A stretch of DNA of 40,171 nt from Neiella litorisoli. Its GTDB lineage: Bacteria; Pseudomonadota; Gammaproteobacteria; Enterobacterales; Neiellaceae. The stretch covers positions 1 through 40,171 of the forward strand of contig NZ_JACXAF010000035.1 of assembly GCF_014773395.1 (NCBI RefSeq), in the 5' to 3' direction. A program made the translations under genes and the position numbers. Under the pieces are notes generated by a model that ran no database searches, was not told the origin of the DNA, and saw only the letters and a list, made by a program, of their open reading frames with translations. Shown here one piece after another: positions 199 through 7,065 of the stretch (positions are counted from its first letter, which is position 1; every line of letters starts with the position of its first letter).

Positions 199-316
199 GC
201 TTGGCGGCCATAGCGTTGTGGACCCACCTGACTCCATTCCGAACTCAGACGTGAAACGCAACTGCGCCGATGGTAGTGTGGGGCTTCCCCATGTGAGAGT
301 AGGTCACCGCCAGGCA
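199..316 (+). rRNA. rrf: 5S ribosomal RNA
   Basis: The segment contains the hallmark 5S blocks CCACCTGACTCCATTCCGAA, GATGGTAGTGTGGGG and GAGAGTAGGTCACCGCCAGG. The terminal helix can be drawn between roughly 199-207 (GCTTGGCGG) and 307-315 (CCGCCAGGC), which sets the ends. The length of about 118 bases is normal. No tRNA follows it; a terminator starts 15 bases downstream and closes the rRNA operon. Confidence 0.96.
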
Positions 317-330
317 CCTAATAAAGCAAA

Positions 331-359
331 AGCCCGATTCGAAAGAGTCGGGCTTTTTT
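331..359 (+). terminator. Rho-independent terminator of the rRNA operon
   Basis: A 10-bp stem (331-340 with 345-354, one G-U pair) closes on a GAAA tetraloop and is followed by a run of T (355-359). The GNRA loop and T-run make a strong intrinsic terminator directly behind 5S. Confidence 0.93.
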
Positions 360-495: not shown

Positions 496-511
496 TGTTG
501 GTTTACTAACA
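496..511 (+). promoter_or_regulatory. Candidate NifA-type upstream activator site (TGT-N10-ACA)
   Basis: TGTTGGTTTACTAACA fits the NifA upstream activator consensus TGT-N10-ACA and is a near-perfect dyad (TGTTgG with CTAACA). It sits about 62 bases upstream of the candidate sigma-54 -24 element and about 95 bases before the inferred transcription start, a normal distance for such activator sites. It is the only copy I found between the rRNA terminator and cowN. The motif is short, so its value comes from the combination with the sigma-54 promoter and a cowN-like gene. Binding by NifA is inferred. Confidence 0.55.
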
Positions 512-572
512 AAGCTCACAAAAACAACAAGTTAATTATTTGTTAAATGGCAGTATTTCAGTGGCTTATAAG

Positions 573-588
573 TGGCCCATGGTTTGCT
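573..588 (+). promoter_or_regulatory. Candidate sigma-54 (-24/-12) promoter of cowN
   Basis: TGGCCCATGGTTTGCT matches the RpoN consensus TGGCACG-N4-TTGCW. The invariant GG (574-575) and GC (586-587) are separated by exactly ten bases, as required. The main deviation is C for A in the GGCAC block. Transcription would start near 599, about 33 bases before the GTG start of cowN. An RpoN promoter next to an activator-like dyad is what a nitrogen-fixation-linked gene would be expected to have. Confidence 0.65.
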
Positions 589-631
589 GCGTGTCACTAC
601 GGCTAACGTCACTATGTAGAGGGCACCTGTT

Positions 632-922
632 GTGACATCACCAGATCAAACAACGGATCGTTACATTTCATTTTGTGGTATCCAATGTGACGCAAACGCA
701 GATAAGCTCATCGAAATGCTGAAATTGAATTTATCGCAAAAGAAAGGCGGAGGGACTTGGGGCCAGTACTTCGAAATGAAGTTCCAAGAGCAGCATTCAG
801 TTGGCTCTGACAATCTGCATTTCATCGGTAATCAACTCAATCCATTGTATGAATACTTCGAAGCGTGTGGCGATAGCGAGGCAGAAGCCTTGTTATATCA
901 GATTGAGCAAGAGTGCTGCTGA
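632..922 (+). CDS. cowN: CowN-like protein (protects nitrogenase from carbon monoxide)
   Basis: This is a 96-residue protein. The order of blocks fits the CowN family: DRYISFCGIQCDANA at residues 9-23, a central W and F region, a NQL-P-YEYFE helix near 68-76, and the acidic end with terminal ECC. Known CowN proteins are about 90-100 residues and sustain nitrogen-fixing growth when CO inhibits nitrogenase. The start is GTG at 632, with AGAGGG (618-623) eight bases upstream. The gene stands alone behind a candidate sigma-54 promoter and NifA-like site. No nitrogenase gene is in the window, so the nif cluster would have to be elsewhere. The middle of the protein (residues 38-60) is more divergent than the ends. 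Recognition is from memory of the family pattern. Confidence 0.82.
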   Translation: MTSPDQTTDRYISFCGIQCDANADKLIEMLKLNLSQKKGGGTWGQYFEMKFQEQHSVGSDNLHFIGNQLNPLYEYFEACGDSEAEALLYQIEQECC

Positions 923-999
923 GCATGGCGTTGCTCATGTTTTTGTCACAGCGATTTTGTTAAGGTACTAGTTAGCAGTTACACCTTTGAGAACTCCCA

Positions 1000-1683
1000 A
1001 TGCATATCTTACTGACCGGTGCTTCATCAGGCATTGGCCGAGCCCTTGCTGTGGCGCTTGACGCCGCTGGCCATCAATTGAGCTTGTGTGGCCGTAATCC
1101 TGAAAAGCTGCAACAAACGTTGGATCAACTAGCGCACCCTGAGCGTCATTTTGTCCGTGCGTTTTGTTTGAGCGATTTCGATGCCATCGCTGAGTTTGCC
1201 AGCAGCGCCCAAGAGCGCAGAGCGATTGATGTATTGATTAATTGCGCTGGTTTAAATCATGCCAGGGGAGCGGGCCATGAATTGCCGAAGCAAGAATTAG
1301 ACTGGATGCTGACCATTAACTGCCATGCGCCGATTGCGATGATGCAAGCTGTGGTGCCTGATATGCTCGCGCGCGCTAGTGGCATGATAGTCAATGTGTT
1401 GTCGACCGTGTGTTTATTCGCGAATCCCAATTTGGCCGGTTATACCGCTTCGAAAGCAGCGCTCGATGCTTATTGCAAGGTCATGCGCAAAGAGTTGCAG
1501 CCTCAGGGTGTGCAAATGCTGTCTGTTTATCCGGGCGGGGTGGATACCGATTTCCGTAGCCAGCAACGACCGGAGTACTTGTCGCCAGCACAAGTCGCAG
1601 AGGCCATTGTGCCGCATTTGAGTACTAAGGCACATGTTCATGAGCTGGTGTTGCGGCCACAGTGTGAATCGAATTATTGCTAA
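1000..1683 (+). CDS. Short-chain dehydrogenase/reductase (SDR family)
   Basis: This 227-residue classical SDR has a Rossmann fold. The nucleotide-binding motif TGASSGIG is at residues 6-13, NCAG at 81-84, and the catalytic Ser135, Tyr148 and Lys152 lie in the S...YxxxK pattern. Arg32 after the second strand (CGRNPEK) suggests NADP(H) preference. The substrate cannot be read from the sequence. The PGGVDTDFR segment near residues 178-186 is the usual SDR 'PG' loop. The gene ends tail to tail with dnaE2: its TAA (1681-1683) overlaps the reverse-strand TAG (1680-1682). There is no obvious partner gene, so it is probably a stand-alone transcription unit. Confidence 0.88.
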   Translation: MHILLTGASSGIGRALAVALDAAGHQLSLCGRNPEKLQQTLDQLAHPERHFVRAFCLSDFDAIAEFASSAQERRAIDVLINCAGLNHARGAGHELPKQELDWMLTINCHAPIAMMQAVVPDMLARASGMIVNVLSTVCLFANPNLAGYTASKAALDAYCKVMRKELQPQGVQMLSVYPGGVDTDFRSQQRPEYLSPAQVAEAIVPHLSTKAHVHELVLRPQCESNYC

Positions 1684-4600
1684 TGAAAGTCTCGTGAGTG
1701 TACCGCGAGCTGTTCAAGGGCGCTGGTACGATCAATCAGGCGCCCTGCAACAATATGAATCACTGATTCTTCTCGCTCAAGAATGCCGTGAACTTCCAGC
1801 AACTTGGCTTGCAAGAAAGGCTTACGTTGCTCTCTGGCAGTATTGAGCCAGACCACCACATTGATATTGCCAGTGTCATCTTCGAGCGTGACGAAGGTGA
1901 CGCCACTGGCTGTTCCCGGTCGCTGGCGGCCAACCACAAGGCCGGCGACGCGAACCAACTCGCCATGACTAAATTGAGGCAGCTGGGCGGCACTGATGGT
2001 CCGCTTAAACAACTGTTGTTCTCGTAATAACGTCATTGGGTGACGCCCCAAACTCACTCCCAAGTGTCGGTAGTCTTGTAGTAAGTTATCCACTTCGCTG
2101 GGGATACTTAAATAGTTGGCGCTCTCTGGTTCGGCAACGGTTTGTTCGATGTTGGCAAACAATGGTGTGTCATTGGCTTGCGCGGCAACCTGCCAATGAG
2201 CCTGATAGCGGTCGCCAGTTAGCGGATTCAGTGCGCCTGCTGCTGCTAGTGCCTGTTGTTCATGACGAGGCATTGCGCAGCGCTGCTGCAGTTCAAGCAA
2301 TGAGCTGAATCCTTGTGACGGCCGATGGTGACAAATTCGTTCGGCTAACTGTTTCGATAGTCCTTTGATCAAGCGCATGCCAAGACGAATGGCTGCTTGC
2401 TGGTTATCATCGGCAACCAATTGGTGGTCCCAGTCGCTTTGATTGATATCGACAGGCAGTACCGTCACGCCATGTCGGCGCACGTCCTGTAGCAACTGCG
2501 ATGGTGAATAAAATCCCATTGGCTGACTGTTAAGTAGGGCACAGCAAAATGCCGCTGGATAATGACGCTTGAGCCAAGCAGAGACATAAGCCAATAACGC
2601 AAAACTGGCGGAATGGGACTCGGGGAAGCCGTATTCACCAAAGCCGAGAATTTGCTTGAAGATACGATCAGCAAAGCTGGTCGAATAGCCATTCGCAGCC
2701 ATGCCCGTGCGCAGTTTATGCTCAAATTTCGCTAGCTTGCCATTGCGTTTCCAGCTTGCCATCGCTCGCCGTAATTGATCGGCTTCGCCCGCACTAAAAC
2801 CGGCTGCTACCATCGCCAATTTAATCACTTGCTCTTGAAAAATGGGTACCCCCATGGTTCGTTCGAGTACCGCTCTGACCGCTTCATTGGGATAACTAAT
2901 GGGTTCTTTGCCATGACGTCGGCGGAGATACGGGTGAACCATGTCGCCTTGAATTGGCCCTGGCCGGACAATGGCAATTTGCACCACCAGATCGTAGTAA
3001 CAGCGCGGCTTCAGGCGCGGCAGCATATTAGTCTGGGCGCGCGATTCGATTTGAAACACACCAATGCTATCGGCCTGACATAACATGTCGTAAACGGCGG
3101 GTTGCTCCCATTCAACCTGGCTCATATTTAATTGCTGACCGGTAAACTGATTGATTAAATCGAAACTACGACGAATTGCCGTCAACATTCCCAGTGCTAG
3201 CACATCAACCTTTAATAACCCGAGCGCTTCCAAATCATCTTTATCCCACTGGATCACGGTGCGGTCTGCCATCGCGGCATTTTCGGTTGGTACCAGCTGA
3301 TGGAGTGGTCCAGCAGAAATAACAAAACCGCCAACATGCTGAGATAGGTGGCGCGGAAAGCCGATGATTTGCTCGACCAGCTGGCGAAAATGCCGAATCA
3401 AGTGATGATCTGGCGAGCCCAATAACCCCAGCTGTTGGCGCCAGTCTTGCTGCTTATCACGACGATCAACATTGGCCATGAACTGATCGAGTTGACTGTC
3501 AGCGAAACCCAGCGCTTTGCCAACGTCTCTGACTGCACTTTTGAAGCGATAGCTAATGACGGTTGCCGCTAAAGCGGCCCGGTCACGACCATATTTTTGA
3601 TAGATGTATTGAATGACTTCTTCGCGTCGTTCGTGCTCGAAATCAACATCGATATCGGGTGGCTCGCCGCGCTCCTTGGAGATAAAGCGTTCAAACAGAA
3701 CCTGAATTTTGCGCGGATCGACTTCGGTAATACCGAGGCAATAACACACCACCGAATTCGCCGCAGAGCCGCGGCCCTGATAGAGAATTTGCCGTTGTTT
3801 AGCAAACCGCACGATGTCTTCAATGGTTAAAAAGAAATGGGCGTATTCGAGCTCCTCTATGAGTGCCAGCTCCTTAGCGATGATTGCCTGAATCGCTAGT
3901 GGCACGCCATCGGCAAAGCGTCGCTGCTGACCTTGAGCAACCAACTGGCGGAGGTGACTCATCGGCGTATGACCGGGTGGAACCAGCTCCGCCGGATACT
4001 GGTAGCGCAGCTCATCCAAGCTGAATTGGCATTGCTGTGCCAGCAGATAGGTTTGCTCAATGTGCTGTTGTTGAAATAATCGATAGATACTGGATTGAGG
4101 CCGCAAATGGCGCTCAGTGTTGGTACTGGCTTGTGCCAATGTTTGTTGTACCGACTGGTTCAGTCGAATGCTGGTGAGCGTATCGAGCAGTGGTTGACGC
4201 TTGGGATCGTGCATCAGTACGGCTCCGCATGCAGCAACCGGAAGTTCGATAGCCTCAGCAAGGGCGCAGAGTTGTTGGTAGCGCAACTTATCATTGCCAC
4301 ACAACGGTCGAGTGGCTAATAACCACAAGCGCCCTTGTGACCAAGACTGGAGCCAATCTAGACTGGGTTGCCAGTCATTCGGATGGGGGTGAGGTAGCCA
4401 ACCAATGAGCGCGGTTTTCAGTAGTTGTTCGACGTCATCTCGATGCAGTTGATAATGACCTTTCGGGCAGCGCATTTGGCCGCGAGCGATCAGCTGACTG
4501 AGTTCGCTATAGGCCTGTTTGTGTGGTGCCCATACCACTAATTGTTCGCCTTCCACTAAGCGGATATAGCTACCAATAATTAATGGTAAGCCAAGCGCTT

Positions 4601-4766
4601 TGGCGCAAACATGGGCGCGAACGACGCCCGCTAACGAACATTCGTCGGTGATTGCTAGCCCTTGATAGCCAAGTTCAAAGGCGCGCTCCACTAGCTCCTC
4701 GGGGTGTGATGCGGCGTTGAGGAAGCTGAAATTGGATTGGCAAAACAGTTCGACATATTGAGTCAT
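1680..4766 (-). CDS. dnaE2: Error-prone DNA polymerase DnaE2 (ImuC)
   Basis: This 1028-residue protein is a C-family DNA polymerase III alpha-subunit paralogue of the DnaE2/ImuC type, the replicating enzyme of the SOS mutasome. The N-terminal PHP domain begins with FCQSNFSFLNAASHPEELV and ITDECSLAGVV. The polymerase core carries PPDIDVDFEHERREEVI with the catalytic aspartates near residues 374-378, then GRGSAANS and QHVGGFVIS blocks. A C-terminal OB-fold region (VAGLVVGRQRPGTASGVTF) precedes the end. The length is normal for DnaE2 (about 1000-1080) and shorter than replicative DnaE. It starts at an ATG six bases after the imuB stop, so the genes are co-transcribed and under the LexA-type site at 7010-7025. 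Confidence 0.96.
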   Translation of the reverse strand: MTQYVELFCQSNFSFLNAASHPEELVERAFELGYQGLAITDECSLAGVVRAHVCAKALGLPLIIGSYIRLVEGEQLVVWAPHKQAYSELSQLIARGQMRCPKGHYQLHRDDVEQLLKTALIGWLPHPHPNDWQPSLDWLQSWSQGRLWLLATRPLCGNDKLRYQQLCALAEAIELPVAACGAVLMHDPKRQPLLDTLTSIRLNQSVQQTLAQASTNTERHLRPQSSIYRLFQQQHIEQTYLLAQQCQFSLDELRYQYPAELVPPGHTPMSHLRQLVAQGQQRRFADGVPLAIQAIIAKELALIEELEYAHFFLTIEDIVRFAKQRQILYQGRGSAANSVVCYCLGITEVDPRKIQVLFERFISKERGEPPDIDVDFEHERREEVIQYIYQKYGRDRAALAATVISYRFKSAVRDVGKALGFADSQLDQFMANVDRRDKQQDWRQQLGLLGSPDHHLIRHFRQLVEQIIGFPRHLSQHVGGFVISAGPLHQLVPTENAAMADRTVIQWDKDDLEALGLLKVDVLALGMLTAIRRSFDLINQFTGQQLNMSQVEWEQPAVYDMLCQADSIGVFQIESRAQTNMLPRLKPRCYYDLVVQIAIVRPGPIQGDMVHPYLRRRHGKEPISYPNEAVRAVLERTMGVPIFQEQVIKLAMVAAGFSAGEADQLRRAMASWKRNGKLAKFEHKLRTGMAANGYSTSFADRIFKQILGFGEYGFPESHSASFALLAYVSAWLKRHYPAAFCCALLNSQPMGFYSPSQLLQDVRRHGVTVLPVDINQSDWDHQLVADDNQQAAIRLGMRLIKGLSKQLAERICHHRPSQGFSSLLELQQRCAMPRHEQQALAAAGALNPLTGDRYQAHWQVAAQANDTPLFANIEQTVAEPESANYLSIPSEVDNLLQDYRHLGVSLGRHPMTLLREQQLFKRTISAAQLPQFSHGELVRVAGLVVGRQRPGTASGVTFVTLEDDTGNINVVVWLNTAREQRKPFLQAKLLEVHGILEREESVIHIVAGRLIDRTSALEQLAVHSRDFH

Positions 4767-4772
4767 ACTGAG

Positions 4773-6242
4773 CTACCCAAACCAGCCATGGAGAAACCAT
4801 TGATTGGCTGGTGTTCGAAAGACCCAGCACAGCTGCCCATGCTGGTCGACTGCAACAAAATAGTCTCGCTGAATGGCACCGTCATCCCACCAGCCACAAG
4901 CAATGCGCTCGGGTGCTGACTTAAGCTCCCAGGGTTGATTGGGTAGCGGTATCGGCTTAGGTAGCAGCCAGACCGGTCGATTGGCACTATCTTGTATATG
5001 ATCTCGACCGTTATCTTGGACATCACCTCGGCCACTGTTTTGAGTGCCAGCAGTGATTGGCGTGTCACTTTCTGTGACTAACTGAAAAGCGCGTTCGGGG
5101 CGAGGATCAGCAGACAAAACGAGGTGCTTGACGTCGCTTGGTGCGAGACGGCTACGAAGTCGGTTCAGTAATTGCCCGCCATCGAGGGCATGGCTATTGG
5201 TGGCAGCAAACAAATCGGTTGCTGGCTGTTGTTGCGGAACTAACTCGGCAGCAACCACCTGAATGCCGATCACCGCCTCAGGTAACGACAGTTGCTGTAA
5301 TCGCAGTCGGGCGAGTATGAGGAATTCACTGGCCTGATGCTCAGGCTGAGCTAAGCGTAATGATATTTGGCTATCGGTTTGTTCCCGATGTTGCAAGATG
5401 AGCTCGACGGCACAGGCTGCCAGTTGCCGCCGACGTAAGTAGTGATTCAGCTCTTTGAGCATATGCTGCAAAGGAAATAATAAGCCGTTGCTATGGTTGA
5501 TTTCATGCAAGCAGTGCCAGTTGCGGACAAACTGAGCGGGCGGTTCAAACCAGCAATGATCATCGACTTTGTCACCGTTTAACCGCTCCAACCAAGTTGC
5601 GATCTCGCCGCTAAAACGCCGCCGCCACTGAGCCATGGGAATGTTGGTTAAATCAGCCAGTTGTTTGATGCCGACATCAGTCAATGATTGTTGCTGCGAG
5701 GCCGATAGCGGTAATTGTTGTAGTGTCAGTTGTTGCAGCTGCTGGTTGAGCTGCTGGGTAGAGGCTAATGGTAAGTCATAGCCTGCTCGGGCTAACACGT
5801 AAGCGGCCATTGGTGTCGTACCAGCGGCGGCATGAAAGCGTAATTGCCTGCTTTGTAGCGCCTGTTGTAACTGTTGCCAGTAGTTTGCTCGGCCACCAAA
5901 TAAACGCCACATGGTGGCAACTTCGAGCAGCAATCCTTGCTCAAATGACAGCGCTATTCGGGCGCACCATTGGTAACAATAGTCAGCAATTTGCGCCAAG
6001 ATCTGTTGTTGTTCATTGCTGCGCTGCGGCTGTAGCTGTAATTCTGGATCAAGCTGCAGGGCCGTGGTAAATACCATGCCGGTTTGCACCCCGCTCGCTT
6101 GTGCCAGACGGCAGTGCTGCCAAACTCGCTTGCCCTGATCCAGTATCGCAATGGGAGTTTGTGGGTTCTGCAGTGATAACTGATCGGCCTGTAAATGTGG
6201 AAAGTGTAGATACAGCCACACTGGTAAATTGGGGCTTGCCAT
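4773..6242 (-). CDS. imuB: ImuB, Y-family polymerase-like mutasome scaffold
   Basis: This 489-residue protein resembles Y-family DNA polymerases but belongs to the ImuB branch, which bridges DnaE2 to the beta clamp rather than polymerising. The N-terminus LYLHFPHLQADQL replaces the metal-binding Asp motif of active enzymes, and LLLEVATMWRLFGG takes the place of the SxDE motif, which supports loss of catalysis. A helix-hairpin-helix-like segment (LTDVGIKQLADLTNIP) lies near residues 185-200. A low-complexity insert near residues 395-420 has two imperfect G-R-D...Q-D units. The start ATG has a GAGG eight bases upstream, and the gene lies nine bases after the imuA stop. Confidence 0.92.
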   Translation of the reverse strand: MASPNLPVWLYLHFPHLQADQLSLQNPQTPIAILDQGKRVWQHCRLAQASGVQTGMVFTTALQLDPELQLQPQRSNEQQQILAQIADYCYQWCARIALSFEQGLLLEVATMWRLFGGRANYWQQLQQALQSRQLRFHAAAGTTPMAAYVLARAGYDLPLASTQQLNQQLQQLTLQQLPLSASQQQSLTDVGIKQLADLTNIPMAQWRRRFSGEIATWLERLNGDKVDDHCWFEPPAQFVRNWHCLHEINHSNGLLFPLQHMLKELNHYLRRRQLAACAVELILQHREQTDSQISLRLAQPEHQASEFLILARLRLQQLSLPEAVIGIQVVAAELVPQQQPATDLFAATNSHALDGGQLLNRLRSRLAPSDVKHLVLSADPRPERAFQLVTESDTPITAGTQNSGRGDVQDNGRDHIQDSANRPVWLLPKPIPLPNQPWELKSAPERIACGWWDDGAIQRDYFVAVDQHGQLCWVFRTPANQWFLHGWFG

Positions 6243-6251
6243 CGCAATGCC

Positions 6252-6980
6252 TCAAGCTTGTTGGGCAAGTGGCTTGCCTGACCAAGGCCCTTGAATAATC
6301 TGGCCGGTAGGCTGGTTGCTGTTGGTTATCTCGTCCGTTGATGGATAAACCGCAGTGACTTGAATCGGCATTGGCTCTGGCGCCCAGCCGCCACGGCGCT
6401 TGATGCAATGCACTTGTATTTGTTGCTCATCAATGGCGCTGAGTTTAAGGCGACAGGCTGCTGGTGATGACTGCGTTGCAACGTTGCTGGGTCGCATCAG
6501 CCAGAGCTGTGATTGGCCTTGCTCGGCTGCCACTTGTAAGCGGCGAATATCTTTTGATGCCAGAGGCTGAGAGCCATCAAGCCATGCCATCACGGCGCTG
6601 CAACTACCACTTTGTAATGCTTGCTCGGCAGCCCATAGTTGTTGTTTAACATCGTTCGATTGCACTAGTAGTTGTTGCGATACATTCAGACCGGCGTCAT
6701 GGAGTGCTGGCGGGTAGGGCACAAAAGGTGGTGCTAACCATAATTGCCACTGTGATGAGGCGGCTTGTTGTTGGCTCAGTTGCGCAAGGGTAGGCAGTAG
6801 GAGTCGCAGCTCTCCGAGCCCCTGGCCATCATACAGTAGCTCGGTTGCCTGCCCTTTCGGCCAGCCACCAAGGAGTAATTGATCAAGTGTGGCAATACCA
6901 CTACTTAAGACTTGCTGAACCCGCTGATGATTGGTTGCCCGCCATAACCGGCCGGCATTCAGTAGCGATTGTAAACTCAC
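6252..6980 (-). CDS. imuA: ImuA, SOS mutasome accessory protein
   Basis: ImuA-type protein (a RecA/SulA-related fold) that acts with ImuB and DnaE2 in damage-induced mutagenesis. Diagnostic segments are the ALSSG-like VLSSGIATLDQLLLGGWPKGQATELL near residues 25-50 and the closing IKRRGGWAPEP region. I place the start at the GTG at 6980, giving 242 residues: GGAGG stands six bases before it on the minus strand. A longer frame runs back to 7043, but it would place the LexA-type operator inside the coding region and adds a poor, unsupported N-terminus. It is the first gene of the imuA-imuB-dnaE2 operon. Confidence 0.9.
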   Translation of the reverse strand: MSLQSLLNAGRLWRATNHQRVQQVLSSGIATLDQLLLGGWPKGQATELLYDGQGLGELRLLLPTLAQLSQQQAASSQWQLWLAPPFVPYPPALHDAGLNVSQQLLVQSNDVKQQLWAAEQALQSGSCSAVMAWLDGSQPLASKDIRRLQVAAEQGQSQLWLMRPSNVATQSSPAACRLKLSAIDEQQIQVHCIKRRGGWAPEPMPIQVTAVYPSTDEITNSNQPTGQIIQGPWSGKPLAQQA

Positions 6981-7009
6981 CGTTTGCCTCCGAACGCAGA
7001 AAAATATAA

Positions 7010-7025
7010 CTGTATATATATACAG
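7010..7025 (-). promoter_or_regulatory. LexA-type SOS box of the imuABC operon
   Basis: CTGTATATATATACAG is a perfect 16-bp palindrome that fits the gammaproteobacterial LexA consensus CTGT-N8-ACAG with an alternating TA core. It lies 29 bases before the GTG start of imuA and its ribosome binding site. It would repress the operon until RecA triggers LexA cleavage. Confidence 0.9.
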
Positions 7026-7065
7026 TATCAGTGAGTTTGCCATTCGGCAAGTTTGTTATCACCGT

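Follow-up and report, generated by a model that had tools for sequence, protein, structure and literature searches.

A cowN gene apart from the nif cluster in Neiella and its probable NifA/sigma-54 promoter

Close behind a 5S rRNA gene of Neiella, near the start of the 40,171-nucleotide stretch of DNA analysed here (the window), lies a short open reading frame preceded by two short promoter-like motifs, which raises the questions of what it encodes, how it is driven and whether it serves a nitrogenase encoded elsewhere. The window is one entire contig (G000:C29) of a genome of 4.32 Mb in 46 contigs. In a first-pass annotation the frame had been read as CowN, the motifs as a NifA-like site and a sigma-54 promoter, and a nif cluster had been predicted elsewhere in the genome. 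In our reading this is, with high probability, the cowN gene of a gammaproteobacterium that fixes nitrogen and is a close relative of Neiella marina, driven by NifA and sigma-54 and protecting against CO.

Between the 5S rRNA gene (200–315, plus strand, Rfam) and a short-chain dehydrogenase gene (1000–1683) the sole open reading frame of at least 60 amino acids spans positions 632–922 of the plus strand and encodes 96 amino acids from a GTG start. Residues 1–96 matched both curated CowN profiles far above the cut-off and over nearly their full length, with 110.5 bits for Pfam PF20543 (cut-off 27, profile positions 3–94 of 94) and 101.7 bits for the NCBIfam equivalog NF033689 (cut-off 48, positions 1–89 of 89), which bears out the proposed identity. 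The start codon is supported by the congener G003, whose ATG stands opposite the GTG in the DNA alignment, and a ribosome-binding-like AGAGGG (618–623, plus strand) lies 8 bases ahead of it. A low-confidence structure model (mean pLDDT 66, pTM 0.52) places helices at residues 21–36, 40–57, 62–79 and 82–95; a sequence search of the PDB yielded no CowN structure and a single match at E 0.14. The gene is an ordinary, well-recognised cowN. It could be imagined as a non-functional residue left after the gene had moved or been replaced, given that the nif operon of some relatives includes cowN and here the gene lies elsewhere, but the frame is open, the protein is 97% identical to that of N. marina and 67% to that of G003, the promoter is kept and no other CowN match occurs in the genome, so that this reading has a negligible chance of being right.

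As to how the gene is driven, a motif scan located a NifA-type upstream activator site (UAS) of the form TGT-N10-ACA (TGTTGGTTTACTAACA) at 496–511 and, at 572–588, an element (GTGGCCCATGGTTTGCT) resembling the -24/-12 consensus of sigma-54 promoters, both on the plus strand. The latter carries GG at 574–575 and GC at 586–587 and shows the exact GG-N10-GC spacing (574–587) claimed for it. From the position of the -12 element, transcription would start at approximately 598 on the plus strand; the dyad, placed earlier some 95 bases ahead of the predicted start, has its centre at that distance from this putative transcription start, whereas it begins 136 bases before the GTG. In 5000 dinucleotide shuffles of positions 316–631 the dyad by itself appeared in 331 and a -24/-12 element of equal score in 255, in keeping with the earlier remark that each signal alone is weak, and the pair appeared in 3, a somewhat favourable figure because the site was already known when the consensus was widened; with a stricter consensus no pair was listed in the window. 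Conservation between congeners, which is independent of this widening, is the better support for the predicted promoter pair. The UAS and the -24/-12 element, both also recognised in the congener alignment, lie 136 and 60 bases ahead of the cowN start in G004 and 138 and 62 bases ahead in G003, which keeps both although its CowN is only 67% identical and the DNA farther upstream has diverged. The proposed NifA-like site and sigma-54 promoter are accordingly present as an ordered, conserved pair.

A second pair in the window, a dyad at 6205 with -24/-12-like sites at 6262 and 6304, one of them scoring 11, falls inside genes of the opposite strand, which means that the combination is not fully specific; pairs at score 11 number 2 in the window, compared with 0.33 in shuffles (maximum 2). 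Upstream of cowN in the 20 genomes of the order that encode CowN, at a lenient score of at least 10 and within 260 bases, the ordered pair was found in seven, a UAS only in two, a -24/-12 element only in seven and neither in four. A true CowN might stand behind motifs that arose by chance, its transcription coming from a different promoter or running on from the rRNA operon: motifs so short are common in shuffles when taken singly, and the second pair lies in coding sequence. This we consider improbable, as the pair is rare in shuffles, is kept in both congeners and recurs before five nif-associated genes (below), a terminator-like hairpin (328–357, plus strand) follows the 5S rRNA gene, and the only sigma-70-like site found in positions 1–1100 is on the minus strand. 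The hairpin scan of 1–1100, with 2 found and 1.4 expected, is weak on its own, and the weak terminator-like hairpin that it placed 3' of cowN (920–937, plus strand) belongs to a number not above chance.

Whether such a promoter has its regulator and its company depends on the rest of the genome. Profile searches recovered nifH (C12:31460, 470 bits), nifD (C12:32410), nifA (C12:10196–11704) and a single copy of rpoN (C5:24315), all four over their cut-offs, and a weaker nifD-profile match on contig C23 is of the kind given by nifE. That the genome has a nif cluster, nifA and rpoN outside the window had been predicted correctly from a single accessory gene and a pair of short motifs. A second role for CowN, suggested for the case that nif were absent, was rejected as unneeded because nifH and nifD are present, and the case does not arise. 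On the 41-kb contig C12 the pair occurs five times at a score of at least 11, compared with a mean of 0.57 in 30 shuffles (maximum 2), and these five precede nifL, a divergent rnf, nifB, nifH and a flavodoxin gene (nifL, nifB, rnf and flavodoxin being named by place and by reading of the translations, not by profile). The proposed search for further pairs was rewarding on C12 and little informative for the genome as a whole, where the motif pattern matched 69 times compared with 45 in a backwards control, and never on C12. Because the same pair stands before five nif-associated genes, cowN seems to belong to the NifA regulon, as a member lying apart from the rest, and its dependence on NifA is inferred from the site. 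Matches to the NifA profile of the sigma-54 activator type, with internal stop codons, were also seen at G000:C7:64644-65720, G003:C39:6208-7302 and G005:C65:26797-27867.

Among 394 genomes of the order CowN was found in 20, all of them within the 26 with nifD over the cut-off (Fisher p 1e-28); nifD without CowN was seen in G002, G126, G162, G185, G304 (51% complete) and G351. Among 369 genomes of the class it was found in four, each with nifD (4/4; Fisher p 5e-5), where G632 has nifD under the cut-off because the gene is split over two contigs. A few genomes, that of the window included, belong to both sets, and the Fisher tests ignore relatedness. CowN is nested within nitrogen fixers; as 28 of the 32 nifD genomes of the class have no CowN, nitrogenase in general does not need it.

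The place of the gene, alone behind 5S, had been called unusual for one often linked to nif, a point that lost weight on comparison. In ten of the 20 CowN genomes cowN and nifD share a contig and are less than 30 kb apart (G001, G039, G059, G110, G124, G136, G174, G226, G246, G256); in three single-contig genomes it lies 283–493 kb away (G015, G300, G364), and in seven drafts the two are on different contigs (G000, G003, G004, G005, G078, G149, G252). In G003 no 5S rRNA gene was found by Rfam in the 10 kb upstream of cowN, while the G004 contig begins 362 bases ahead of the gene and is too short to judge. Because a hairpin intervenes, G003 has no 5S there and cowN lies far from nif in at least three of the 20 genomes, the placement behind 5S, a neighbour outside the cowN unit, looks incidental. 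The first 60 bases of the window we take to be the 3' end of a 23S rRNA gene, and since the window is a whole contig beginning there, the region farther upstream cannot be followed. In an Rfam run on 36 loci, several of which overlap within one genome, 5S was found only in Aliagarivorans, namely A. marinus (L040, L046 and L072, one genome) and A. taiwanensis (L039, 2.2 kb after cowN); apart from these and the two congeners, most loci reach about 1.5 kb to each side. In A. marinus (L040 and L072, 1-2662) cowN and a DUF1275 gene stand between two 5S copies, of which one is truncated where the contig stops; on the Neiella nif contig a DUF1275 relative with 47% identity sits right at the edge (C12:295-954). 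Downstream in the window, positions 1680–7043 hold what we take to be genes for a DnaE2-type polymerase, ImuB and ImuA, which are also near cowN in G003 and G004; the DnaE2-like protein is 99% identical to that of G004, a genome of the same genus.

For the function of the protein we follow one report, according to which CowN cross-links to the MoFe protein and restores nitrogenase turnover under CO (PMC8047169). When fixed nitrogen is short, NifA would bind TGTTGGTTTACTAACA (496–511) and contact sigma-54 polymerase at 572–588, a short transcript would start at about 598, and the 96-residue CowN, predicted to be mainly helical, would bind the MoFe protein and lower its affinity for CO, so that fixation could continue. 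Protection against CO by the Neiella protein is thus proposed by analogy with published work on CowN of Gluconacetobacter, Rhodospirillum and Rhodobacter; what is observed is the protein family, the promoter sequences with their conservation, and a genome that carries nif, nifA and rpoN.

In this lineage the protein might serve nitrogen fixation in some way other than by guarding against CO, for example in a redox- or oxygen-related role. The CowN of the window has five cysteines (15, 19, 79, 95, 96); those at 19 and 95 occur throughout the Neiella/Aliagarivorans/Vibrio branch (17 of 17 rows), and the three rows of family f6 have none. The Gluconacetobacter protein, which has one, is described in the same report as expressed without added CO and possibly doing more than CO protection (PMC8047169). 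Set against an equivalog-level match to CowN, such a role seems unlikely. Equally slight is the probability we give to the wider idea that this branch, marked by cysteines at 19 and 95 and as many as three others, is redox- or metal-responsive and that Neiella drives it by NifA without CO sensing; if true, such a CowN would accompany nitrogenase at all times. In the tree, for which 26 rows were reduced to 23 (L039, L040 and L045, identical in protein to L046, being dropped), the Neiella CowN groups with other families (100/99), apart from G001 and G005 of its own family, and this grouping suggests a possible transfer or replacement of cowN in the Neiella lineage; the protein is short, internal resolution is poor, the program flagged long branches, the true N-terminus is missing from L055, and L059 sits on a long branch. 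The recurring 5S neighbour in Aliagarivorans, the extra cysteines and the possible transfer are taken as leads only.

CO-dependent regulation offers a further contrast between lineages. In Gluconacetobacter cowN sits with algH and cooA, and the sites for CooA and NifA overlap (PMC8047169), whereas no CooA-type site (xGTCx-N6-xGACx) was found within 260 bases upstream of the Neiella gene. A TGTC-N8-GACA palindrome precedes cowN in G252 and G300 (L054, L055), where a CRP-family gene adjoins. The CRP-family gene beside G252 cowN has a 61% relative in G300 and its closest counterpart in the Neiella genome at only 25%; cooA is likely to be absent from Neiella, on the presumption that the G252 gene is cooA. 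CRP-family regulators beside cowN, perhaps CooA, were observed at L069:7041-7694 and G300:C1:3608549-3609175.

A literature search on Neiella and nitrogen fixation returned one list of names. With the CowN of Gluconacetobacter diazotrophicus, Rhodospirillum rubrum and Rhodobacter capsulatus the Neiella protein shares the family (PF20543, NF033689), the size and perhaps the four predicted helices (here from the low-confidence model), and its gene shares the upstream NifA-type TGT-N10-ACA and a genome with Mo nitrogenase; in the report such a dyad stands upstream of a cowN whose product rises 30-fold in diazotrophic growth (PMC8047169). In G001, G039 and G174 cowN ends the nifHDK run, after nifX-like and DUF6129-like genes, whereas in Neiella it forms a unit of its own on a different contig, and a further gene comes after the DUF6129 gene, with cowN standing apart (the nifX-like gene reached 98 bits, under its cut-off of 112; DUF6129 was over the cut-off in Neiella and under it in G039). 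G001 has neither UAS nor -24/-12 element before cowN and carries the pair before nifH. Accepted ideas on CowN are unchanged by Neiella, which clearly illustrates that cowN can stand outside the cluster as a unit probably driven by NifA, while in some relatives it belongs to the nif operon. In Aliagarivorans marinus (L040, L046, L072) UAS and -24/-12 element likewise precede cowN with 5S nearby, at a spacing of 88 between the two elements as compared with 76 in Neiella.
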